Positions 674-19,450 of a stretch of 37,376 nucleotides of DNA are shown in pieces. The stretch covers positions 1-37,376 of the forward strand of contig PTLG01000006.1 in the NCBI GenBank assembly GCA_002937995.1. Direction: 5' to 3'. Numbering within the stretch: position 1 is the stretch's first letter; every line of letters starts with the position of its first letter. The stretch comes from Alphaproteobacteria bacterium MarineAlpha3_Bin7 (GTDB lineage Bacteria > Pseudomonadota > Alphaproteobacteria > Rhodospirillales > UBA2165). Both the position numbers and the translations under genes were made by a program. The notes below the pieces were generated by a model. The model had not been told where the DNA came from. It saw nothing but the letters and a program-made list of their open reading frames with translations, and searched no databases.

Positions 674-1675
674 CTAAAAGTCACCAAGCACCTGCAGGAC
701 ATGACGCCTAAAGCTATCAATTAAGCTATCCTTGTGTAGACCCTGATAAATAATAACTAGACGCGTTCTGATAAAGGGTTCGGTCCAGTTAGGAAGATTT
801 TTTAATGGACTTATAGAGTTGCCCACAGCTTGCAAAAGTAAGGGTTCCTGTTTGCCCTCCAACCATATTATTCCCTTCATCCTTACTAAATTCTGTGGTC
901 GAAGAGAATATAACATCGACAACCAATAATTTAACTTTTCCTCAGGTATAGTGCCGTCGTGAGTAATTGAAACAGAGTCAATGTGATTATGAGCAGAACC
1001 TACCTTTTCTCCGTTTCTAGCAATATTAGCTTGGGCTTCTCTATTTGGGTTAATATCAATATTAAATAATTCATCGGGATCTATACATCCGTTAACTATT
1101 TCTCTTATCGGCGCTGTTGGATTAATACCGTTGACAGCCCCCATAAGGTTCTCAAGAGTCGTATTGTCCGAAATATCTCCCTTTGTAAGAAGCAAAACAT
1201 CAGATGACGCTATTTGGATTGATGCTTCCTGATATTTCTCCATTTGATTTTTCCCCAAAACACCATCAACTGTTGATATTACAGAGTCTAACCTAACGCG
1301 GTCCCTTAGAGCGAGGTTTTCATCAATACTGATTACGATTGGGCGAGGGTCCGCTAATCCAGTCGTTTCTATTATTATCCTGGAAAAAGCTGGTATCTTT
1401 CCATTAGTAACATTGGTAAAAAGGTCAGATATTGTATCTACTAGATCACCTCTTATAGAACAACAAATGCACCCATTTTCCAACAGAAGAGTATTCTCAA
1501 ACGAAGACTCCACTAATATATGGTCTAAACCTATTTCACCAAATTCATTAATTATAAGAGCCGTATCACGCAAATTATCGAGGCTTACAAGGTAATTAAT
1601 CAATGTAGTTTTACCGCTACCCAAAAATCCAGTTATAACTGAAACTGGGGTTCTATTTAAAGCTACCTCTGCCAT
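674..1675 (-). CDS. CobW/COG0523 (G3E) family GTPase, putative metal chaperone
   Basis: Walker A GFLGSGKTTL, GCICCS (CxCC) metal motif, TGLADP, C-terminal CobW_C-like region. Confidence 0.9.
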   Translation of the reverse strand: MAEVALNRTPVSVITGFLGSGKTTLINYLVSLDNLRDTALIINEFGEIGLDHILVESSFENTLLLENGCICCSIRGDLVDTISDLFTNVTNGKIPAFSRIIIETTGLADPRPIVISIDENLALRDRVRLDSVISTVDGVLGKNQMEKYQEASIQIASSDVLLLTKGDISDNTTLENLMGAVNGINPTAPIREIVNGCIDPDELFNIDINPNREAQANIARNGEKVGSAHNHIDSVSITHDGTIPEEKLNYWLSMLYSLRPQNLVRMKGIIWLEGKQEPLLLQAVGNSISPLKNLPNWTEPFIRTRLVIIYQGLHKDSLIDSFRRHVLQVLGDF

Positions 1676-1785
1676 TTAACCCAACTCACCAATCACTATT
1701 AAACCCAAACTAATATTTTGGATTTACAAATCACAACTATCATAGTTATGTAGACTCAAATAATACAGTCAAAATATCAGTTTAT

Positions 1786-3030
1786 ATGGGGTATCAAATG
1801 TCTGAAACACTCTCAAAGAATATGAAATTAATCGCACACCATGATTTAAATGGTTTTGGGGGTGTTGGTGAAGGAATGGCACTGCAAGTCACTAAAAATG
1901 GAAAAAGGGTATTATGGATTGCTCACGAGGGGCCACCAAAGAACTTTACTGGAGTAGATGTCACCGACCCCAGAAAACCAAAGATAATTTGCCAGACAGA
2001 ACTACCCCATGAAAAAATGCGCTCTAACTCGTTGGAGTTAAGTGGTGATATTTTGGCCGTAGCTTATCAAGTTTATGAACTTGGAATTGAACCAGCAGGT
2101 GTTGAATTGTTTGATGTAAGTGACCCCAGTTCGCCTGTATCCATTGGATTTCATTCAACCTCAGGGCCTCATTCACGAGGAGTGCACTGCCTTTGGTTTG
2201 TAGATGGAGAATATATCCATATGGCGAGCGGTGCTCCGGATTTTACTCCTAGGCACCCGAGAGATGATCAATTTTACCAGATAATAGATGCTCGAAAACC
2301 CTCAAAAATGGAAGAGGTAGGAAGGTGGTGGTATCCGGGTACGAGAGAGGGTGATGAGGCTGAATCACCAGAGAGAATTAATCCAGACCCATCAACTGAC
2401 CTTCGAGGCGGTGATGCGTTCCGTTTACATAATGCTAATATTTATCCAAGTAACCCTGATAGGGCCTACCTAGGTTACATTGATGGTGGAGCCTTCATTT
2501 TGGATATATCAAATAAATCAAACCCCACCGTGATATCTAGTTGGAGCCCCCACAACCCTTATCCAGGTTTTACTCATACTGTAATGCCCTTATTTGATCG
2601 TGGATTACTGGTTGTAACTGACGAGTGTATAAAAGATGATGGAGAAGATTGGCCAAAATTGACTTGGATAGTTGATGCTAGAAACGAAGAAAAGTTGGTG
2701 CCAATAAGCACATTACCAATGCCACCACTGGAAGAATTTGGCAGTAAAGGTGGTAGATTTGGCTCACACAACCTCCATGAAAATCGTCCGGGGCCGTCAT
2801 TTTTTAGCGAGGAAATTATAATAGGGGCTTTTTTCAATGCTGGTATTAGGGTTTATGATATTAAAAACCCTTACCAACCGGAATTACTTGCCTTTTTTAT
2901 CCCACCAGGACCAAAAAATTCTCGTGTCAGCACCATCCAAATGAATGAAATTTACGTTGATGAAAATGGTATCGTCTATGCTGGAGACCGCTGGGCTGGA
3001 GGATTATACATCATGGAAATGGATATTTAG
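1786..3030 (+). CDS. LVIVD-repeat-like beta-propeller protein
   Basis: Repeated VDVTDPRKPKII / FDVSDPSSPVSIG / LDISNKSNPTVIS / YDIKNPYQPELLAFF motifs. First ATG at 1786; a second at 1798 is possible. Confidence 0.75.
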   Translation: MGYQMSETLSKNMKLIAHHDLNGFGGVGEGMALQVTKNGKRVLWIAHEGPPKNFTGVDVTDPRKPKIICQTELPHEKMRSNSLELSGDILAVAYQVYELGIEPAGVELFDVSDPSSPVSIGFHSTSGPHSRGVHCLWFVDGEYIHMASGAPDFTPRHPRDDQFYQIIDARKPSKMEEVGRWWYPGTREGDEAESPERINPDPSTDLRGGDAFRLHNANIYPSNPDRAYLGYIDGGAFILDISNKSNPTVISSWSPHNPYPGFTHTVMPLFDRGLLVVTDECIKDDGEDWPKLTWIVDARNEEKLVPISTLPMPPLEEFGSKGGRFGSHNLHENRPGPSFFSEEIIIGAFFNAGIRVYDIKNPYQPELLAFFIPPGPKNSRVSTIQMNEIYVDENGIVYAGDRWAGGLYIMEMDI

Positions 3031-3785
3031 TGCACCCTGATTTTTTATCCCCCAAGAATCCTAAAACCTTAATTATCTATGGTGTTTCCAAGTCACCATC
3101 AACTTTTGAAAAAGAGTGGATGAGTGAAGAAAATCATACTCAAGAAAGATTAGGGACTAACAGTGTGAGCTTGTCACCTAGCTCTCCGTCTCTTCGGTTA
3201 AATAGTAAGGGATGGATAAATATTAGCACTCAAACGCTCTCTGAACTAAAATCAACTGATGATTTATTTGAAAATTGTAAGTCGCGACTTCTACAAAACA
3301 TAGATAAGTTTTCTATATCTCTAAATAAGTTTGTATCAGTTTACATGAATTTAATACTTAAACTTATTGAAAAAAACAAACTAGAGATTAAAAAGTGGAT
3401 TCCCGAGAAAGAGGTGTATACATATAAAGACTTTATTTTTTCGGCCTATCTTCCACTACTTAATCCAAGAATATTGTTACCACCCAGCTACGACAGACGA
3501 AATGCTGAAACTCCCTATTTTGCTCACTTAGACATTGTTTTCTGGATTGATGAAGAACTGGTTTGTGTAAACATCGGTAGCAAAACTAGTGGTATAAAAT
3601 CTAGACGCAAAGCAATAGAATTTTTAACCACAAACTACCCAAAAATAAGGATGATCAATATTGAGGCCCAAGAACTTACATTAGACAAATTTCCAATTAC
3701 CAAATTTCCAACAAGTTTTGGTAAATTCTGGGAAACCATCAGTACCCCGATGGGTCCTGACGCGAGAGATTTTATTATACTTTAG
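3030..3785 (+). CDS. hypothetical protein, translationally coupled to the upstream LVIVD protein
   Basis: 251-aa ORF with GTG start overlapping the upstream stop (TAGTG). Confidence 0.6.
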   Translation: MHPDFLSPKNPKTLIIYGVSKSPSTFEKEWMSEENHTQERLGTNSVSLSPSSPSLRLNSKGWINISTQTLSELKSTDDLFENCKSRLLQNIDKFSISLNKFVSVYMNLILKLIEKNKLEIKKWIPEKEVYTYKDFIFSAYLPLLNPRILLPPSYDRRNAETPYFAHLDIVFWIDEELVCVNIGSKTSGIKSRRKAIEFLTTNYPKIRMINIEAQELTLDKFPITKFPTSFGKFWETISTPMGPDARDFIIL

Positions 3786-8845: not shown

Positions 8846-9634
8846 TTATTTTCCAGTGAATTTCGGTACTCGCTTCTCCAAAAAACTTTTTACACCCTCC
8901 TCATGATCATCTGATAATTTTAAGGTGCTTTGTCCCAACCTCTCCAGATTTCGACCTGTTTCCAAGTCGGTATTCAAACATTGGTTGATTACTAACTTAG
9001 CCGTTCCTAACGCCAGCGGTGCCCGTGCAGCTAAAGTCTGTGCAAATTCTCTGCAGTGATCAATTAATTTGTCTGGTGCTACAACTTCCTCTATTAAACC
9101 AACCTCCAGCGCTCTTGAAGCATCAATTATTTCCCCGGTCATCACCAATTTTTTTGAAATAGCCGGACCTACTAATTTAACTAACCTGGATATGCCACCG
9201 GATCCTGGTATAAGTCCTACATTTCCCTCAGGAAGCCCAAACTTAGCATTTTCACTAGCGATACGGAAATCACATGATAAGGCAAGCTCAAGCCCACCTC
9301 CTGCTGCAACGCCATTTATAGCCGCAATTACCGGTATCTCAATTTGTTCCAAATCATCAAAAACATTATGGATCATCCTAACTCGACGCCGGAACCCCTT
9401 TGGCCCAACATTTGACAGATCCCCCATTCCCTGCACGTCCTCTCCCGCAGAAAAGGCCCTCCCACTGCCAGTTATTATGAGAACCCTTACATCATCGTCG
9501 TCGACAATATTTGAGACAGCTTCCCTCAACTGTTCGCGCATTAGAGTGTTCCAGGCGTTTAGCTTATCTGGTCTATCTAAGATAATCGTGGCAACGCCTT
9601 CCCGACTATCCAACTCTATATATTTATCAGTCAA
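8846..9634 (-). CDS. enoyl-CoA hydratase/isomerase family protein (PaaG-like)
   Basis: ILDRPDKLNAWNTLMREQL, GSGRAFSAGEDVQGM, AINGVAAGGGLELALSCDFRIA. Confidence 0.92.
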   Translation of the reverse strand: MTDKYIELDSREGVATIILDRPDKLNAWNTLMREQLREAVSNIVDDDDVRVLIITGSGRAFSAGEDVQGMGDLSNVGPKGFRRRVRMIHNVFDDLEQIEIPVIAAINGVAAGGGLELALSCDFRIASENAKFGLPEGNVGLIPGSGGISRLVKLVGPAISKKLVMTGEIIDASRALEVGLIEEVVAPDKLIDHCREFAQTLAARAPLALGTAKLVINQCLNTDLETGRNLERLGQSTLKLSDDHEEGVKSFLEKRVPKFTGK

Positions 9635-9813
9635 TTTTTTTCCAGTTTTGGGTGCAATTCAACATCGACCCCAAGGTTCCACAAGATCCAGTGAAGATTC
9701 AAATCGGCTTCATCTAAAGCACCTTCTACCATTGGTACGTCACATTCAATTAAAACCTCCTTTATGAGAGACCTCGCTGCAATGATTTTTTCCGTAGCCA
9801 AATCTATATCCAT
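9631..9813 (-). CDS. small (60-aa) acidic conserved-looking protein of unknown function
   Basis: Start at MDIDLATEKII after AAAAGGAGGCAGCTA; overlaps the downstream enoyl-CoA hydratase start by 4 nt. Confidence 0.6.
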   Translation of the reverse strand: MDIDLATEKIIAARSLIKEVLIECDVPMVEGALDEADLNLHWILWNLGVDVELHPKLEKN

Positions 9814-9832
9814 TAGCTGCCTCCTTTTTTTA

Positions 9833-11242
9833 TTAACGATCCATCGCCCTCTGAAACTCTTTTGGTCTATGGTCAAAAACCCGTTTTGTCTTTAAATCAT
9901 AGCGGGGCAAACTATAGGGAGGACTTGGAGTTACTTTCATTCTAACTTTCAGCTTATCTCTTACAACTTGTTGTACCTGATTAGATAGTTCCGCCCATTT
10001 CGTTTCAGGAATAACTTTCTCAGGCTCAAACTTTATTTCCATTTCATCGTTTCCCTCATCCTGTGTCATGTGTAATTCGTAATTACTACTAACACCATCT
10101 ATATCCCCTAAAATATTTTCGACAGCAGTAGGATAAACATTTGTCCCTCGCAATGTGATCATAAAATCTGTTCTACCCAAAACCGACCCTTCGAACTTTA
10201 ACCAGGTCCGCCCCGAAGGACACGAGTACCTGGGCCTAACTAAATCATGGGTCCTATAGTTTAATAGGGGTTGTGTACCATTTGTATAGCTTGTTACAAC
10301 ATGTTCGCCGATCTCACCCTCGGAGACCTCCTTGCCAGTATCAGGATCAATAACCCAACTATAGACAGACATTTCATCAACATGCACCCCATCACCAATA
10401 GAATTACAGGGAGCAAATGCATCTATCTCAGCTATACCAAGTAATTCTCCAGCATTTTGTGCTCCCCAAGCCTTTAGTATTTCCTTTTTCATGGCTGGTA
10501 ATGCTGTTGGACCTGGTTCCCCCGCGTGCATGGTATAGTTAACAGAACTATCTTCGAGATTTACCCCCATCTCCCTTGCTACTGTCGCCAACCTTAGAGC
10601 AAAGGTAGGTGTCGAAATAATAACCGTGGGTTTTAGTCTCTGGATTGCACTAATATGTCCTTCTGTATTCAAACCTCCGCCCGAAATTACTTTTCCACCA
10701 AATCTTCGGACACCCCAATAAGCACTCCAAAAACCAGCAAAGTTACCCCAGCCAAAGGCAAAATAAAAACTATCGGTGGGTCGAATACCAGTCGCCCAGA
10801 AGGCTGGACACCAGCTTTCTCCGTAACGCATAGTATCATATAGAGAATATGGTATTGCTAAAGGCGCTCCAGTTGTACCCGAAGTTTCCGCGTGATGAGC
10901 AATAAACTCCGCTGGCATGGCTTGTGTAGGACCATAGGGAGGAGATTTGGATTGTAGTTCTAGAAAGTCATCCTTATCTGTAAATGGAACTTTCTTTTGA
11001 TAATCATCGAGAGTTTTAATATCTCCTGGCTCAAGACCTATTTCTTTAAAACGTGACCTATAAAATGCACTATTTTCAGAAACATAATGAACTAATTTTT
11101 GAAGCCGCTTTAAATGCAAATCATTTAGCTTCTCCCGCGGCATGGTCTCAGCTATTACGTTCCAAAAAGGGCTTTCTTTGGATCCTGCACTATACTTTTT
11201 TAATTCATCCGCTTTCAACTTTTTTCCCCACCAATGCTTCAA
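9833..11242 (-). CDS. phenylacetate-CoA ligase family (PaaK-like) AMP-dependent CoA ligase
   Basis: HHAETSGTTGAPLAIPYS, YRTHDLVRPR, GRTDFMITLRGTNVYPTAVE motifs. Confidence 0.9.
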   Translation of the reverse strand: MKHWWGKKLKADELKKYSAGSKESPFWNVIAETMPREKLNDLHLKRLQKLVHYVSENSAFYRSRFKEIGLEPGDIKTLDDYQKKVPFTDKDDFLELQSKSPPYGPTQAMPAEFIAHHAETSGTTGAPLAIPYSLYDTMRYGESWCPAFWATGIRPTDSFYFAFGWGNFAGFWSAYWGVRRFGGKVISGGGLNTEGHISAIQRLKPTVIISTPTFALRLATVAREMGVNLEDSSVNYTMHAGEPGPTALPAMKKEILKAWGAQNAGELLGIAEIDAFAPCNSIGDGVHVDEMSVYSWVIDPDTGKEVSEGEIGEHVVTSYTNGTQPLLNYRTHDLVRPRYSCPSGRTWLKFEGSVLGRTDFMITLRGTNVYPTAVENILGDIDGVSSNYELHMTQDEGNDEMEIKFEPEKVIPETKWAELSNQVQQVVRDKLKVRMKVTPSPPYSLPRYDLKTKRVFDHRPKEFQRAMDR

Positions 11243-11278
11243 AAATAGAAAAAACCTATTCCTAGAGTAGCCGTACCC

Positions 11279-12052
11279 TTAACTACCCTTAAATTTAGGT
11301 TGCCTTTTGCTTAAAAAAGCATCCAGTCCCTCTCCAGCATCGTCAGTAGCCATGAGTATTTGTTGGTTTGATCTCTCGAGTGCCGTCCCTTCAGCTAAAG
11401 ACATTTCCAAACCTTTAATTATAGATTGTTTAGCAAAACCTTGTGCTAATGTTGGCCCCTCAGCAAGCTTTTCCGCATATTGCATTACCTTTGAATCAAA
11501 GTCTTTCTTATCTTCTAACCAATCAAAAATACCCCAGGTAAATGCTAATTCCGGACTAATTGTCTCTCCAGTCGTAATCATTCTAATGGATTTTGACCTA
11601 CCGATTAGACGGGGTAGCCGCTGTGTACCTCCCATAGCCGGATTTAAGCCCAAATTAATTTCAACCAACCCAAGTTTATAATCGCTATCCATTCCAAACC
11701 TGAGATCGCAGGCTAGAGCTAACTCCAGACCACCACCCATAGCATGACCAGCGATCGCCGCTATAATTACCTTGGGAGTTTCCTCAAGCATGGCCATAGT
11801 TTCACCTGCTACGGTAATGAAATTTCTAAATCCAGTTGAGTCTGTATCCTTAATCATTGAAATATCTGCCCCAGCACAAAAAAATTTTTCTATTGAGCTT
11901 TGTATCACAACAACTCTGATATCAGAATCTTGCCTTATATTTTGAATTATGGATTGAAACTCTTGCAACATTTCGAGGTTGTAAGCATTAGCAGGCGGAG
12001 CATTTAATGAGATTACACCAACACCACCAACCCTCTCTAGATCGACTGACAT
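11279..12052 (-). CDS. enoyl-CoA hydratase/isomerase family protein
   Basis: EKFFCAGADISMI, AIAGHAMGGGLELALACDLRFG. Confidence 0.92.
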   Translation of the reverse strand: MSVDLERVGGVGVISLNAPPANAYNLEMLQEFQSIIQNIRQDSDIRVVVIQSSIEKFFCAGADISMIKDTDSTGFRNFITVAGETMAMLEETPKVIIAAIAGHAMGGGLELALACDLRFGMDSDYKLGLVEINLGLNPAMGGTQRLPRLIGRSKSIRMITTGETISPELAFTWGIFDWLEDKKDFDSKVMQYAEKLAEGPTLAQGFAKQSIIKGLEMSLAEGTALERSNQQILMATDDAGEGLDAFLSKRQPKFKGS

Positions 12053-12074
12053 ACTTACCTCCCTTTCCCTACGA

Positions 12075-12827
12075 CTATAAATATTTACGATTTTCCATAT
12101 GATCGGGCACTTCTAATCCAAGCTCCTTTATTAAAGGCACTGTATCAGCAATATATTGTTGTCTCAGTTCCTCATTAGTTTTTCCCTTAATACCCCACTG
12201 GACATATATTTTTGAGTTATCGGAATCAGATCTACCAAACATATCTAAAGCAGCGGGCCACCATTTAGCTAACAGTTTTTGAGCTTCCTTTTTCCCATTT
12301 TCACTTTTCACTATATCTCTTAAAAATCTAAAGCCCGAGTCAGCATGAAATTTCTCATCCTTTTCCAACTGATCAGAAACTTTAGCTAAAGGCTCATAAG
12401 TGCTACCCATCCACTCGATACCCACATATAATCCAACCCTATCAATAAGCATATGAAACCAAGCAACATCACACCAACACTCTAGAGGCATTTTGAAAGC
12501 ATACTGACCTACCCATTTATCATTAAATGGATCTTCCCCAAGTGACCTTATTATATCAGCCACAATCCTTCCATGAGTTACTTCTTGTTTCACGATTTCA
12601 GCCTCGATTACCATAGCCTTTTCATCTGGTGCATACCTGAGCCCGGCCTCAGCGATATTAGCTAGCACATCCCTATAATTGGGATTTGCACTATTTTCCA
12701 CGTGACCATATTTTAGCAACTTCACCATAAACTCCTTGTACTCTTTAGGCATCTCAGGATCATCTTGCTTAAACATCTTTAATCCCTTTGCGCGAGATTC
12801 TTCTGTGAGTTGCATATTACTATCCAT
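12075..12827 (-). CDS. PaaA/PaaC-like diiron (ferritin-like) CoA-thioester epoxidase subunit homologue
   Basis: EIVKQEVTHGRIV and KDEKFHADSG (ExxH-type diiron ligands), WWPAALDMFGRSDSDNS...NEELRQQYIADTVPLIKELGL, similar to the PaaA C-terminal part. Confidence 0.8.
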   Translation of the reverse strand: MDSNMQLTEESRAKGLKMFKQDDPEMPKEYKEFMVKLLKYGHVENSANPNYRDVLANIAEAGLRYAPDEKAMVIEAEIVKQEVTHGRIVADIIRSLGEDPFNDKWVGQYAFKMPLECWCDVAWFHMLIDRVGLYVGIEWMGSTYEPLAKVSDQLEKDEKFHADSGFRFLRDIVKSENGKKEAQKLLAKWWPAALDMFGRSDSDNSKIYVQWGIKGKTNEELRQQYIADTVPLIKELGLEVPDHMENRKYL

Positions 12828-12925
12828 ATTCCTTAACTCCTTAATTTAACGCTCTCAAACAGCATAATAAGCAAAGTCCATCTGATTTCAATCACAGAAC
12901 ACATACAAGCTAAATACAATACAAC

Positions 12926-13654
12926 TCACTTGTCTAGCTCTGGGTAGTATCGAAAAACACCACTCTTATTGAATGGTATTCTCCGATCCGAACTCAAGTA
13001 TTTGGAAACTTTATTATCTAGAAACACTTTATCATTAAGTGAAAGCACCGACAGACATCTTTTCTCATGCTTTTTAAAACCTTTTGGAAACGCATACCTA
13101 AGACCTTGAACTACTTGAAATAGCGAAAGATCCACATACGTCATTGTGTCGCCTATTAGCCAACCTGAATGCGATGGGTTGTTTTGAAGAACTTTCTCAA
13201 AATAATTCATATATTTGGGGATACGATTATCTATAAATCCAGAGGCACGTTGCACAGATTCTTCCTTCTGCTCTTCATAGTATAGAGCATTGGAAATAGG
13301 ATGATGAGTATCATGCACTTCCATCAATAGATCTGTAACCGTTAACTGGAGTTGGTGAGCAAAATTCCTATCCGGCTCACTTGATGGCGCCAGACCAAGC
13401 TTGGGTCCCAAGTAGAATAATATATTTGCCGCCTGAGCAACCACTATATCGCCATCAATCAAGAAAGGCGGCGCAAAGGGCGGCCTTGCGGCGGATTCTT
13501 CATTGATTTTTTCCACAATTTTTTCTCTGCCAGCCTCGACACTGTCTGCATCCCGAGCCACGTCGATGTACTTTGCTCCACCCGCCTCAAGGGTCAGGCG
13601 AACAACCTCTCCCCTACCTTGTATATGTGGCCAGTAATAAAGTTGGTAAACCAC
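12926..13654 (-). CDS. glutathione S-transferase family protein
   Basis: YYWPHIQGRGEVVRLTLEAGGAKY N-terminal thioredoxin fold, PPFLIDGDIVVAQAANILFYL. Confidence 0.85.
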   Translation of the reverse strand: MVYQLYYWPHIQGRGEVVRLTLEAGGAKYIDVARDADSVEAGREKIVEKINEESAARPPFAPPFLIDGDIVVAQAANILFYLGPKLGLAPSSEPDRNFAHQLQLTVTDLLMEVHDTHHPISNALYYEEQKEESVQRASGFIDNRIPKYMNYFEKVLQNNPSHSGWLIGDTMTYVDLSLFQVVQGLRYAFPKGFKKHEKRCLSVLSLNDKVFLDNKVSKYLSSDRRIPFNKSGVFRYYPELDK

Positions 13655-13665
13655 TTATTACACTC

Positions 13666-14115
13666 TTAGAGATTATTCAAATCTCTAAGTACTTGATCAG
13701 GATGTTCAGCTGGCTTAACAGTATTATAGACTTTAATTACCTTGCCGTCTGGGCCAATAAGAACCGACATTCTACTAGCACTACCTGAATCACTTGGAGT
13801 CACACCAAAACTAATTGAAACTTGCTTGTCCAAATCACTTAAGAGGTCAAAAGGAAAACCATTTTTTTCCTTGAAGTTCTTATTAGACCCAGGTTTATCA
13901 AAGCTAACACCTAAAATTTGACAATTTTTCTCATTAAATTCTTGGATTCTATCACGGAACCCTAAACCTTCTTTAGTTCAGCCAGGTGTACTAGCCTTGG
14001 GGTACCACCACATTATTACATATTTTCCAGAAAAATCGCCAAGCTCCACAGATTCTTCATCTTGGTTTATAAATTTGAAATCTGGAGCTTGGTCACCCGA
14101 ACTTAAAACTGACAT
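13666..14115 (-). CDS. Bcp/PrxQ-like peroxiredoxin with in-frame TGA at the peroxidatic Cys position; predicted selenoprotein
   Basis: Hand translation: MSVLSSGDQAPDFKFINQDEESVELGDFSGKYVIMWWYPKASTPG-U-TKEGLGFRDRIQEFNEKNCQILGVSFDKPGSNKNFKEKNGFPFDLLSDLDKQVSISFGVTPSDSGSASRMSVLIGPDGKVIKVYNTVKPAEHPDQVLRDLNNL*. Codon 46 is TGA (13978-13980), SD GAGGAT upstream, stop TAA at 13666-13668. Absent from the supplied ORF track. Confidence 0.9.
13944..13962 (-). promoter_or_regulatory. candidate bacterial SECIS hairpin
   Basis: GGGTTC-CGTGATA-GAATCC (6-bp stem, 7-nt loop with G at loop position 2) starting 15 nt after the TGA. Confidence 0.65.
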
Positions 14116-14229
14116 ATTTATCCTCACAGTAAAATTTTTAACTCAACTAAATTACCCTCAAAAATAGGGGAGTCAAACAACTCTTATATCAAAAACTTGA
14201 GTAACATTCTTAAAACGTGAATAAGAGAA

Positions 14230-14257
14230 AAGGGAAACGCCAAAAAGCGCTTCCCTT
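14230..14257 (-). terminator. intrinsic terminator of a short minus-strand transcript
   Basis: Minus strand AAGGGAAGCGC-TTTTTG-GCGTTTCCCTT then TTCTC; the single imperfect pair is G-U in minus RNA but A-C in plus RNA, supporting minus orientation. Confidence 0.65.
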
Positions 14258-14290
14258 ACGTGACAAGGCAAATTACTGCCTTATTTAAAA

Positions 14291-14368
14291 CTATCTATGC
14301 GCTAGGAGTTTGTTCCTCTGTCGCTCATAAATTTTCTGGCAATAAAATACCCTTAAATCACTAGACAT
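14291..14368 (-). CDS. putative 25-aa small protein MSSDLRVFYCQKIYERQRNKLLAHR
   Basis: Near-consensus SD (AAAGGAGGTGG) ending about 5-7 nt before ATG at 14368, stop TAG at 14291, followed by two hairpins. Confidence 0.5.
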   Translation of the reverse strand: MSSDLRVFYCQKIYERQRNKLLAHR

Positions 14369-14542
14369 TAGACCACCTCCTTTCCGTTGTTAGAGATACT
14401 TTCAACGTATGCATATATTTTTTGGAATTCAAGCAGTCTAAAGAACTTTTTTAAGAAATTAAGAACTTTATAGAAAAGTAAAATAACTTTTGTTTGCAAG
14501 ACTATTAACTGGTTAAACTAATAAAATTATCTACTTATAGGA

Positions 14543-14959
14543 TTGGTGATAATCATTATGAAACAATTAAATCTATTTTTCTTTATAGCTATTTTTGGTT
14601 TTATTTTTTTTAGCGATGTAACCTCGGCAAACGATAAGCAAGGGATGTTTGTAAGCTATGGTGTTAAAGAATGTGAGTCAGTAATTTCGCTGTCTAAAAA
14701 AGTGATAAAAGAAAGCGACCAAAGCTCTCTTGATATACAGGTGCACAAAATTAGTGGCCATCCTGAGTTACAGTATTTACATGGTTGGCTATTAGGTTTT
14801 GCAACAGCTATTAATAGCTCAATTCATGGCCCACCCAATTTTTTTAAGGGAATGAAAGAGTCCGAAATAATAAAATGGACCGTCAATTGGTGTAAAAAAA
14901 ATCCTGGCGGAACCATTGATACGGCAATTCGCAAACTAGCAACACAACCAAAGCCTTAA
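14543..14959 (+). CDS. small secreted/periplasmic protein, Rap1a/HdeA-like pattern
   Basis: Hydrophobic N-terminal signal, one Cys near the N-terminus and one in NWCKKNP, LHGWLLGFATAIN motif. Confidence 0.6.
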   Translation: MVIIIMKQLNLFFFIAIFGFIFFSDVTSANDKQGMFVSYGVKECESVISLSKKVIKESDQSSLDIQVHKISGHPELQYLHGWLLGFATAINSSIHGPPNFFKGMKESEIIKWTVNWCKKNPGGTIDTAIRKLATQPKP

Positions 14960-14991
14960 ATATTTAATAAAGTAACTTAATTTTGTGTAAC

Positions 14992-16476
14992 CTAATCGAT
15001 ACCAATTATTTGGTCTAATAATTTTTGCGTATGAATTACATTCTGTTCTTGCCTGCAATAGCGATGGCCTGGAAAGGCTCGAGAGTGCATCCCCTGTTGA
15101 AATAGCGGCGTTGTCCGAAAATCCTGCATAAAAGATGGTGGCATACGATCTTTAGGATAATTTTGCCAATCCGGTATGAATTCATAATGAGTCTCTGGAG
15201 CCTCACCATCACCATAACGAAATAAAAAATATATATCCCAAATCATGGTATCGGGATCATCTCCATTGGGCCTAGACCTAAAAAGTCCAAAACTGTTGCC
15301 AGCTGCAGGGCCTAGCATGTTCGGGAATATGCGGTGCTCACATGGGAATCCAAACATTTGTTGGTTTTCCAAATGTGACAAATCAATACCATGTGCTGCA
15401 CAAGCATCGCGTCGCAGTTTGACCATAAATTCGGGTCCAAGCATATCCAGAGGTAAATCTTTTAAATCATCAAAGTAATCTAGTTCATACTGTGCAGCTC
15501 TATTTTGAACAACCATGATTTCAATTGCTTTTCGTGCCCACTCACGGGGAGTTGGATAATCTTCATCAGTCAGATCACCAAGCTTTACTCCAGGGGGCAA
15601 GCCTGTAGTCAGTTGCCAATGAGGTTCCCAAAAGTTGGTGTGGAGATCAAATTGTTCGTACACTGTCATCGCTCCAACCTTGTCTGGTGGCGGATAACTA
15701 TCGCCTTTCTTCTCGCCGACCCGGCGCCCTCCAGGCCCTGTTGAGACAGCCCCTACGTTATTTAGATCCATAACGTGGGTAGCCCAAACATGGTAGCCTT
15801 CTTGAAATTGATCTATAGCATATTTCCAATTACACGGCAGAACCATCGTGTAATGGCGGTGAATACGCATTTCTTTAATATTATAGGGCTTTAAATTATC
15901 AGGTGCGGGGTGAAGATAATCTAGCAAAGGTTCTGCATTCATATCCATATTAATAAAAACAAAACCCTCCCAGGTATCAATGAGAGCCCTCCGTAAACAC
16001 ACTTCTTCCCTCTTTACCATACCTTTTGCAAAATCCTTTGCTCCTGGTAAATGGCACAACTCACCGTCAAGGTCGTAAGCCCAACCATGAAATACACATG
16101 TTATTTTTCCATCAAATTGGGCTTTATTTCCATTAAATGTACCTGGACCACCGTACTCATGGTTTCCTTCTACTAACCTAGTTCCGCGGTGCATACAGGT
16201 ATTGTAAAATGCATTTAACTTATCTTCCCCTTCCCGAACTATAAGAAATGACTGATCTCCAATACGATATTCATAGAAATCACCTACATTTGGTATTTCT
16301 TCTTCCCGGCAAACCCATTGCCAGACCCTAGGCCAGAGGAGTTCATATTCTTTTTGTAGCCAGTCCTTGCCGATATATCGTTCTTTAGGAAATATACGAC
16401 TATAATCTTTCTCTTCGACTTTGGCTTTTAAACCTTTTAGAGAACCAGTCGTAAAATCTCTTGGCTTACCCTTCAT
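14992..16476 (-). CDS. Rieske-type aromatic ring-hydroxylating oxygenase, large (alpha) subunit
   Basis: Rieske ligands CMH...CVFH, mononuclear Fe site YHVWATH. Start placed at MKGKPRDF; the ORF extends to 16506. Confidence 0.92.
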   Translation of the reverse strand: MKGKPRDFTTGSLKGLKAKVEEKDYSRIFPKERYIGKDWLQKEYELLWPRVWQWVCREEEIPNVGDFYEYRIGDQSFLIVREGEDKLNAFYNTCMHRGTRLVEGNHEYGGPGTFNGNKAQFDGKITCVFHGWAYDLDGELCHLPGAKDFAKGMVKREEVCLRRALIDTWEGFVFINMDMNAEPLLDYLHPAPDNLKPYNIKEMRIHRHYTMVLPCNWKYAIDQFQEGYHVWATHVMDLNNVGAVSTGPGGRRVGEKKGDSYPPPDKVGAMTVYEQFDLHTNFWEPHWQLTTGLPPGVKLGDLTDEDYPTPREWARKAIEIMVVQNRAAQYELDYFDDLKDLPLDMLGPEFMVKLRRDACAAHGIDLSHLENQQMFGFPCEHRIFPNMLGPAAGNSFGLFRSRPNGDDPDTMIWDIYFLFRYGDGEAPETHYEFIPDWQNYPKDRMPPSFMQDFRTTPLFQQGMHSRAFPGHRYCRQEQNVIHTQKLLDQIIGID

Positions 16477-16541
16477 AATACTCACCCCCCATGCATCCAA
16501 CTGCAATTCATTATCATATCCGTTTTAAAACTATTGGCCAA

Positions 16542-17513
16542 TTAATATTCCAGTGGGAAATGACATGCCACGAACTGTCCTTTTCTAATCTCCCTTAAAT
16601 CTGGTTCATGATTTTCACATTTCTCTTCGGACCTTGAACAACGCGTTCTAAACCTGCAGCCCGACGGCGGATTCATTAGAGATGGTATTTCCCCAATTAA
16701 TTCTGTTTCCCGGATCTTTTTGTTTTCATAAAGTATCGATGGCACAGACCCTATGAGACCGTGTGTATAGGGATGGAGGGGCTTCTCATATATTTCCATA
16801 GAGGCCCCTATTTCACACAACTTCCCTAGATACATAACGGCCACCCTGTCGCTAATATTTTTTACTACAGCTAGATCATGACTGATAAATAATAAGGTAA
16901 GATCATGTTTTCTTTTCAAATCCTCGAGCAAGTTCAATATTTGCGCTTGAATCGAAACATCTAGTGAAGAAACCGGTTCATCACAAACTATGAATTTAGG
17001 CTCAAGAATTAGGGCACGGGCAATACAAATTCTCTGACATTGTCCACCTGAAAATTCATGAGGCCTCTTATCCACAGTAGTATCAGGATTCATATTAACG
17101 GCATTTAAAACAAACCTAACTCTCTCTTCTATTTGTTTTTTTTCTTTGACACCGGATATAATCAATGGCTCCGATAATATATTCCTCACCTTTCTCCGTG
17201 GATTTAAAGAGGCAACTGGATCTTGAAAAATAATTTGCATGTTATGACGCATCCTTTGAAGGGCGCGATTTGATAAATTGCTTAGCTGCTTACCCTCAAA
17301 TAATATTTTCCCCTTGGTAGGAGGAGGTAATTGGATAATTGATTTCCCTATAGATGATTTTCCACAACCGGATTCGCCAACAAGACCAAGTGTTTCTCCT
17401 TTTAATATACCAAAACTAACACCTTCTACTGCAGCAAAATGCTGACCCTGATAATCATATTCTACAGTCACATCCTGCAAATCTAATAGATACTGTTCCG
17501 TCATCGCATACAC
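16542..17513 (-). CDS. oligopeptide/dipeptide ABC transporter ATP-binding protein (DppF/OppF-like)
   Basis: GESGCGKSSIGKSI, EFSGGQCQRICIARAL, PPSGCRFRTRC C-terminal oligo_HPY motif. Confidence 0.95.
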   Translation of the reverse strand: MYAMTEQYLLDLQDVTVEYDYQGQHFAAVEGVSFGILKGETLGLVGESGCGKSSIGKSIIQLPPPTKGKILFEGKQLSNLSNRALQRMRHNMQIIFQDPVASLNPRRKVRNILSEPLIISGVKEKKQIEERVRFVLNAVNMNPDTTVDKRPHEFSGGQCQRICIARALILEPKFIVCDEPVSSLDVSIQAQILNLLEDLKRKHDLTLLFISHDLAVVKNISDRVAVMYLGKLCEIGASMEIYEKPLHPYTHGLIGSVPSILYENKKIRETELIGEIPSLMNPPSGCRFRTRCSRSEEKCENHEPDLREIRKGQFVACHFPLEY

Positions 17514-17519
17514 AAACCG

Positions 17520-18497
17520 CTAATTTTCTAATGGGTACCAACACCTGTAGCGGTGATCTCCCCCATTTAGTATTATTTCAGGCATCTCGGAAAAACACTT
17601 ATCCCGAACACCTTGACATCTCTCTTGAAAACGGCACCCCTGAGGTGTTTCCAAAAGACTTGGCGGCATCCCGTCAATAGCCCTCAGTTTGGTATGGGGT
17701 GGTGAGGTTAAATCAGGAACAGACCTCATCAATGCACTCGTATATGGCATCATTGGGTTTTTCATAAGCTCGGCAGTCGCTGACTCCTCAACAAATTGAC
17801 CCGAGTACATCACCGCAACCCGGTCGGTGTAGCGCGAAATTACACCTAAATTATGGGAAATTAGTATTATAGCTGTATTAAACTTATTAGTTTGTTCTTG
17901 TAATAGATTAAGAATCTGTCCCTGTATAGTAACATCCAGTGCAGTTGTCGGTTCATCAGCAATTAATAACTTTGGTTCAGGGGCCATTGCTATGGCTATT
18001 GCAATTCTTTGCCTCATGCCGCCAGACAAGTTCATAGGATAATTACTCAGCTGTTTTTCACTCTCAGCAATACCCATTGAATTCATTAGTTCTATAGCCC
18101 TATACCTGCTATCCGTTCTGCTTAGGCCTAACTTCTGTATTAAAACCTCTACTATTTGCTCACCTATTTTCTTAACAGGATTTAGAGAGGACATCGGATT
18201 CTGAAAGACCATAGCTATTTCTCTGCCTCTTATTTTCCTCATCTCTTTTTCTGGCAAAGATAATAAATTTCGGCCTTCAAATATTATTTCCCCCTTCGTA
18301 CTAACGATCCTATTTTCAGCGTGTACTCTAATAATTGTTCTAGACAAAACACTTTTACCAGAACCCGACTCTCCAACTATCCCAAAAGATTGACCGCGAT
18401 CAATTTTAAAGGAAACTTCATCTACCGCATTAAGCTTACCGCTTTTAGTCGCTAAACTCGTAACTAAACTCACTACTTCTAGAAGTAAACCTGCCAA
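17520..18497 (-). CDS. oligopeptide/dipeptide ABC transporter ATP-binding protein (DppD/OppD-like)
   Basis: GESGSGKSVLSRTI, NLSGGMRQRIAIAIAMAPEPKLLIADEPTTALD, PQGCRFQERC. Confidence 0.95.
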   Translation of the reverse strand: MAGLLLEVVSLVTSLATKSGKLNAVDEVSFKIDRGQSFGIVGESGSGKSVLSRTIIRVHAENRIVSTKGEIIFEGRNLLSLPEKEMRKIRGREIAMVFQNPMSSLNPVKKIGEQIVEVLIQKLGLSRTDSRYRAIELMNSMGIAESEKQLSNYPMNLSGGMRQRIAIAIAMAPEPKLLIADEPTTALDVTIQGQILNLLQEQTNKFNTAIILISHNLGVISRYTDRVAVMYSGQFVEESATAELMKNPMMPYTSALMRSVPDLTSPPHTKLRAIDGMPPSLLETPQGCRFQERCQGVRDKCFSEMPEIILNGGDHRYRCWYPLEN

Positions 18498-18514
18498 ATC
18501 TTACTCCTGACGCA

Positions 18515-19450
18515 TCATCTCTTACTTTTGCTGCTAGCTGTCGGCGCTCTAAAGGTGGAATCTGCGTTAAAGGTCCATTCCGAAAAAATTTCTGGACCAA
18601 CGTTAAAGCTTCTAGGCTTCCACTTTTCTGTCATTATGTCCTCGTCTGCGCAGTACTCTAGCGCTCCGCCTAATGGGCTAACAAAATACCAAAAACAAGC
18701 CGATGAGATATAATGCCTACCTGGACCCACTCGCGTTTTCCATCCTTTTTTTGTTAGGAACTGCCCCCCACCTATTACTTCGTGAATATCGTTTACTTTA
18801 AAGGCCAAATGATCAAACTTTGGCTTGCGGGAATCAATATTCAAAACAAATAAATTATGATGGTTTCCATTTGGTGCTGATCTCATAAAGACCCCTCTAT
18901 TGGGATATCTATCAGTCACCCGAAAACCAAGCCTACCACAATAAAATTTCTCCACTATTTGTATGTCTGGCACACCAAAAACAATATGACTAATGCACTG
19001 AGGAATGGCTCTCTCATAGAAAGTGGCTGGGTTATCCTTTCTAACGGCATTACCTGGATAGTTAAATTCAGTTTCAGCAACTTTTATTTTTTTTCTGATA
19101 CTCAACTTAAATCCGATTCCCAATCCCATATCATCTACTGTGCGTATCGAACCATCCTTGCAATACTCCACGGACCTATCCCTACTAAGCTCGTCAGCAA
19201 TATTTTTAATATCACTCTTTCTTTCGACACCCCATATAACTTCTCGAATATTAGATTTTGGTCCTATAGCTTTGGGTAAACTGCTATTTCCATAATCCCT
19301 AATTTTTACTACGGTCCCATCCACACAATTATAGTTAGCACCAAATTTGCCAGACCTTGTTCTTTTAAGGCCAAAGTCATCTAAAAATCTCACAGCTTTT
19401 TGCCGGTCCGTTACCCCAAAAACTGCCTCCTCAATACCTAAGATACTCAT
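18515..19450 (-). CDS. two-domain VOC/glyoxalase protein (type I extradiol dioxygenase-like)
   Basis: Duplicated VOC modules; QCISHIVFGVPD...FDHLAFKVNDI...ALEYCADEDI (H, H, E pattern). Confidence 0.8.
   Translation of the reverse strand: MSILGIEEAVFGVTDRQKAVRFLDDFGLKRTRSGKFGANYNCVDGTVVKIRDYGNSSLPKAIGPKSNIREVIWGVERKSDIKNIADELSRDRSVEYCKDGSIRTVDDMGLGIGFKLSIRKKIKVAETEFNYPGNAVRKDNPATFYERAIPQCISHIVFGVPDIQIVEKFYCGRLGFRVTDRYPNRGVFMRSAPNGNHHNLFVLNIDSRKPKFDHLAFKVNDIHEVIGGGQFLTKKGWKTRVGPGRHYISSACFWYFVSPLGGALEYCADEDIMTEKWKPRSFNVGPEIFSEWTFNADSTFRAPTASSKSKR

Follow-up and report, generated by a model that had tools for sequence, protein, structure and literature searches.

Marine peroxiredoxins of the COG1225 type in which selenocysteine (Sec) forms part of a TxxU motif have been known since 2005 from the selenoproteomes of the Sargasso Sea and GOS, where they are reported to be abundant, with 43 (PMC1088965) and 253 genes (PMC2398784), respectively, and they are listed in current catalogues as COG1225 Bcp, TxxU (PMC9312934; see also PMC13188914). 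The class is thus well established in marine metagenomes, as the initial annotation of this DNA had held. An experimentally characterised precedent for a Sec-peroxiredoxin is PrxU of Eubacterium acidaminophilum (NF040737), for which PMC9312934 cites Sohling 2001.

Here we describe a gene of this kind in the window, by which we mean the whole stretch of 37,376 nucleotides that was analysed. The genome to which the window belongs (G000) is a draft of 2.58 Mb in 271 contigs, 92.5% complete. We read it as a functional selenoprotein gene and estimate a probability of about 0.96 for its identity as a Sec-containing peroxiredoxin of the Bcp/PrxQ type.

A conserved TGA codon in a Bcp/PrxQ-type peroxiredoxin gene

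The gene lies on the minus strand and comprises the following features:

13666..14115, minus strand: predicted coding sequence of a Sec-containing Bcp/PrxQ-type peroxiredoxin of 149 aa, with start ATG at 14115 and stop TAA at 13668-13666
13978..13980, minus strand: codon 46, an in-frame TGA assigned to selenocysteine, where the family has its peroxidatic Cys (TPG-U-T)
14121..14125, minus strand: Shine-Dalgarno-like GAGGA, 5 nt before the ATG, read from the sequence

Translated with TGA as Sec, the frame gives 149 residues (MSVLSSGDQ...KASTPG-U-TKEGLGFRDR...DLNNL and the stop), and its sole internal stop is the TGA at codon 46. The Pfam AhpC-TSA match (E=1.7e-33, residues 7-128) runs across the TGA, as does the Redoxin match (4.8e-21), and PrxQ/Bcp chains from the PDB align through it, with residue 46 opposite the Cys of TPGCT. 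Translation, Pfam and the PDB alignment therefore agree with the coordinates and the description in the initial annotation, namely a full-length, 149-residue, minus-strand Bcp/PrxQ peroxiredoxin with TGA at codon 46, and the Shine-Dalgarno sequence and normal TAA stop that it mentioned are both present. It had also remarked that ORF calling overlooks the gene, and the table 11 ORF list indeed lacks a full ORF at 13666-14115. The practical consequence is that standard ORF calling loses a catalytic gene of this genome, its active-site codon having the appearance of a stop.

A search of the 92.5%-complete assembly with the window protein returned no second homologue at E<=0.001, and, as far as this search and the completeness of the assembly allow, this may be the only PrxQ-type enzyme of the genome. 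Homologues among phage records all have less than 60% identity, and a scan for promoters and terminators gave a result no better than shuffled sequences.

Homologues were sought in a whole-genome search of 100 relatives, the codon at the site being read by script. The identical codon, TGA, occurs in the genomes of 16 relatives and in an uncultured alphaproteobacterial assembly (L002), making 17 genes. A class-wide search (240 genomes, family alignment) returned further TGA copies, and the five that were checked (L085-L089) have TGA at the same codon, bringing the total to 23 genes, that is, the window gene and 22 homologues from other genomes, spanning different genera and families. Two orthologues, in the genomes G001 and G011 of one genus, have TGC at the position of codon 46. 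The other homologues from both genome searches are mostly uninterrupted, with Cys in those checked. Thus, an in-frame UGA stands at a redox-active position that is occupied by Cys in homologues, and the similarity continues unbroken on both sides of the TGA, as had been claimed, in homologues with either TGA or a Cys codon there. On these comparative grounds, the 17 + 5 other genes with TGA at codon 46 exclude its occurrence by chance.

Purifying selection is apparent on both sides of the TGA. Pairwise counts for two of the homologous loci (L026 versus L030) give a pN of 0.06 and a pS of 0.47 upstream of the codon and 0.06 and 0.49 downstream. Since the same TGA is found in homologues and the gene is under purifying selection throughout, neither a pseudogene nor a read error can explain the codon, as judged from these alignments. 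More distant matches to the peroxiredoxin family (in G017, G015, G010, G006:C36 and G025:C41; 34-43% identity) also have one internal TGA each, and they probably represent other Sec-peroxiredoxin subfamilies.

A SECIS-like hairpin downstream of the TGA

The RNA just 3' of the UGA can be folded into a candidate SECIS element:

13944..13962, minus strand: apical SECIS-like hairpin, with a 6-bp stem (GGGUUC/GAAUCC) and a 7-nt loop (CGUGAUA) that begins after a spacing of 21 nt from the UGA
13936..13971, minus strand: SECIS-like element including the lower helix, which is GAAG/CUUC in most relatives and GAAG/AUUU here, with one position unpaired

Published limits for bacterial SECIS elements are a loop of 3-9 nt, a stem of 4-16 bp, a G among the first two positions of the loop, a distance of 16-37 nt from the UGA and an MFE of at most -7.5 kcal/mol (PMC13188914). 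The window hairpin lies within all of them (7 nt, 6 bp, G second, 21 nt, MFE -8.9). Such a fold is not rare, however, as 193 of the 1255 TGA triplets in the window (15%) have a comparable 6-bp SECIS-like stem by chance, and the window hairpin taken alone does not differ significantly from shuffles (z=-1.12). Because the fold of the single sequence is not significant, it was dropped as proof of a SECIS, and conservation was used instead.

Across the TGA sequences the hairpin has the consensus GGGUUC-CGUGAU(A/C)-GAAUCC. With 18 sequences aligned, 100% of the upper-stem cells are paired, and with 23 sequences 99.3%; for the lower helix the figure is 95.7% of cells, again in 23 sequences. Covariation is thin, with a single double change (a compensatory change of G-C to A-U in L041) and several substitutions on one side of the stem that leave the base pair intact. 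From codon +6 to codon +12 past the TGA, synonymous sites are nearly invariant (GGG in 17/17, TTC in 18/18, CGT in 18/18 and ATC in 16/17, with Arg encoded only by CGA or AGA), whereas in other parts of the gene the codons for these amino acids vary freely (Mann-Whitney p=2.8e-5). The region downstream of the TGA thus appears to be under purifying selection as protein and, in addition, under an unusual synonymous constraint as RNA. In the TGC orthologues (G001 and G011), a stem of at most 2 bp can be formed at the hairpin position. The strength of the case for a SECIS lies in this conservation and in the contrast between Sec and Cys forms, both read from aligned sequences.

Selenocysteine machinery and alternative readings of the TGA

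Matches above the curated cut-offs identify three genes for Sec synthesis and insertion in the window's own genome:

C203:5187-6287: selA, E=4e-156
C203:3217-5133: selB, directly after selA, E=4e-133
C200:10966-11892: selD, E=4.5e-120

The initial annotation had proposed looking for the sel genes in this genome. The expectation stood for selA, selB and selD. tRNA-Sec, the product of selC, was not detected in the 92.5%-complete, 271-contig assembly, whether the search used Rfam RF01852 or a model derived from 15 relatives; with the latter, 150 of the 472 first-look candidates were scored. Those of the weak Rfam matches that were checked with ARAGORN proved to be tRNA-Ser, -Leu, -Tyr, -Gly or -Cys. 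In Alphaproteobacteria, selC has been described as nested in or beside selB (PMC8124441). Here selB ends normally, and neither ARAGORN nor Rfam places a tRNA near it.

The simplest reading is that selC sits in an unassembled part of the genome. Among the 16 relatives with the TGA gene, 12 have tRNA-Sec (68-82 bits, all called tRNA-SeC with anticodon TCA by ARAGORN) and 13 have SelA. Neither selA nor selC was detected in two of the genomes that carry the TGA gene, G005 (85% complete) and G021 (88% complete). The two genomes with TGC, which are 100% and 90% complete, gave no match to SelA, and the search for tRNA-Sec in them turned up only tRNA-Ser; as both belong to one genus, they count as one evolutionary event. 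In several relatives a single contig carries both selA and selC, ∼3–36 kb apart, so the missing selC may fall in a gap near C203. In another relative (G030:C360, locus L057), an ORF that resembles a phage-type integrase by eye adjoins the tRNA-Sec gene (∼1693–3090, minus strand), which suggests that selC can be an integration site and could explain assembly breaks at selC. A second tRNA-Sec in the genome G006 (C89:6110-6200), ∼3 kb from the Sec-peroxiredoxin gene at 2757-3197, could be either a real duplicate or contamination.

Two readings of the TGA that do not involve Sec have to be weighed against these data. A TGC in a former Cys-type PrxQ gene might have mutated to TGA, leaving a pseudogene, or might have been misread in sequencing or assembly; the two codons differ by one base, and the source is a fragmented draft of 271 contigs. 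The same codon in 22 other genes from different genera and families, the strong purifying selection that continues after it, the SECIS-like synonymous constraint and the presence of selA, selB and selD all argue against such an event, which we regard as extremely improbable. Slighter still is the chance that TGA has been reassigned throughout the genome to an ordinary amino acid such as Trp, which would equally leave the frame open if the TGA were read through. Full-length ORFs throughout the window follow table 11, and TGA terminates 5 of the 36 main ones, as it does some of the orthologous peroxiredoxin genes (L029, L002 and L041); homologues without the TGA have Cys at the position, not Trp; and no second gene-like frame broken by one TGA turned up when the window's intergenic stretches were scanned, the peroxiredoxin frame standing alone. 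The interpretation of the gene as encoding a selenoprotein, as originally proposed, is instead supported by TGA conservation, the SECIS-like hairpin and the three sel genes. Comparison establishes which codon is the Sec codon, the RNA element, the machinery genes apart from selC and the peroxiredoxin fold; that Sec is actually inserted, that the protein is an active peroxidase, which donor supplies its electrons and what part the GST-like protein plays are inferred.

Predicted active site, gene neighbour and known peroxiredoxins

An AlphaFold2 model built from the orthologue alignment (mean pLDDT 94.4) has the thioredoxin-type peroxiredoxin fold, and the closest solved structures include Bcp/PrxQ proteins, for example Bcp1 (3drn; TM 0.91, rmsd 1.3). 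Pfam and structure comparison both indicate an AhpC-TSA/Bcp domain whose peroxidatic site reads PxxxTxxU. Pro39, Thr43, residue 46 and Arg115 show little or no variation, as expected for such a site. There is no Cys at +5, the resolving position of 2-Cys PrxQ, and no conserved second Cys among 18 TGA sequences. The absence of a conserved resolving Cys favours a 1-Sec cycle with an external thiol donor, which we consider likely. In the proposed mechanism, SelB and Sec-tRNA(Sec) would recode UGA46, directed by the SECIS hairpin just 3' of the UGA. The selenolate would lie at the N-terminal end of helix 44-55, together with Pro39, Thr43 and Arg115, all conserved, and would reduce H2O2 or an alkyl hydroperoxide, itself becoming a selenenic acid. 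This would then be reduced directly by an external thiol, supplied by glutathione or by thioredoxin/glutaredoxin, the glutathione route possibly with help from the GST-like product of the adjacent gene.

Other chemistries can be envisaged for the same protein. Oxidised Sec46 might be resolved by Cys65 as a selenenylsulfide that is recycled by thioredoxin. Cys65 is the only other Cys of the window protein and a Cys is found there in 10 of the 18 TGA sequences, but it is missing in the other eight, of which four have no other Cys and four carry a Cys elsewhere, at a site that is not conserved, and the usual PrxQ resolving position is not Cys; such a two-residue mechanism is accordingly the less probable one, by a good distance. 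Sec might also be inserted into a protein that acts mainly as a thiol/selenol oxidoreductase or redox sensor, and Sec proteins with a peroxiredoxin fold and a UxxC motif are indeed catalogued as peroxiredoxin-like thiol:disulfide oxidoreductases (PMC13188914). The motif here, PxxxTPGU, is of the peroxidatic PxxxTxxC/U type and not UxxC, Pro39, Thr43 and Arg115 are conserved, and the nearest structures are Bcp/PrxQ peroxidases, which makes a role other than that of a peroxidase very unlikely.

The gene directly downstream of the peroxiredoxin gene is as follows:

12926..13654, minus strand: GST-like gene, start GTG, separated by an 11-nt gap (Pfam GST_C_3, E=1.3e-25)

In eight relatives an orthologue follows the peroxiredoxin gene on the same strand, within 26 nt in five of them, and the GST-like gene is probably a co-transcribed partner of the Sec-peroxiredoxin. 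That the GST-like protein assists in reducing the oxidised enzyme is plausible but more doubtful. An equally tentative proposal is that the conserved pair constitutes an undescribed selenium-dependent, peroxide-reducing module of this bacterial family, in which a Sec-peroxiredoxin lacking a resolving Cys would be recycled by glutathione via the neighbouring GST. In two relatives (L026 and L030), the unit includes an AhpD/CMD-like ORF (849-1497, minus strand; motif NNCHYCVEHHF) between the two genes, with a weak Pfam CMD match below the curated cut-off. The surrounding part of the window (8846-19450) is rich in catabolic genes, among them an enoyl-CoA hydratase-like gene, one for a PaaA/PaaC-type protein, the GST-like gene, a Rieske ring-hydroxylating oxygenase and transporters.

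How, then, does this locus compare with known systems? Cys-form Bcp/PrxQ, a thioredoxin-dependent thiol peroxidase (PRK09437; 3drn, 5iph, 3ixr), shares the fold and the active-site residues with the window protein, which differs in having Sec for the peroxidatic Cys and no Cys at +5 and which scores 125.2 against the NCBIfam model PRK09437, below its cut-off of 140. Peroxiredoxins of the 1-Cys, Prx6 type are reduced by glutathione with GST. They thus likewise combine one catalytic chalcogen residue with a partner of the GST family, but they belong to a different peroxiredoxin subfamily, and in the window the partner is suggested by gene neighbourhood only. A non-exhaustive check of the literature found no description of a Sec-PrxQ with a GST-like neighbour. 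PrxU is, like the window protein, a selenocysteine-containing peroxiredoxin. Its model (NF040737) is 233 positions long, whereas the window protein is of the shorter Bcp/PrxQ type and, scoring 56.4 bits where the cut-off is 270, falls outside PrxU.

The Sargasso Sea and GOS proteins have in common with the window protein the Bcp-type domain, the TxxU motif and Sec at the peroxidatic position, a likeness of domain and motif as opposed to one-to-one sequence comparison. Among relatives, the single TGC genus with no detectable Sec machinery offers a natural comparison for the benefit of selenium to a peroxidase. The window gene is a well-supported addition to the known marine class, of modest novelty. 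Whilst the Sargasso Sea and GOS genes are mostly environmental reads described at the family level, it adds a GST-like neighbour, a defined SECIS-like element and a matched set of genomes, and so anchors in particular genomes, with an RNA element and a neighbouring gene, a protein that had been known chiefly from marine reads.
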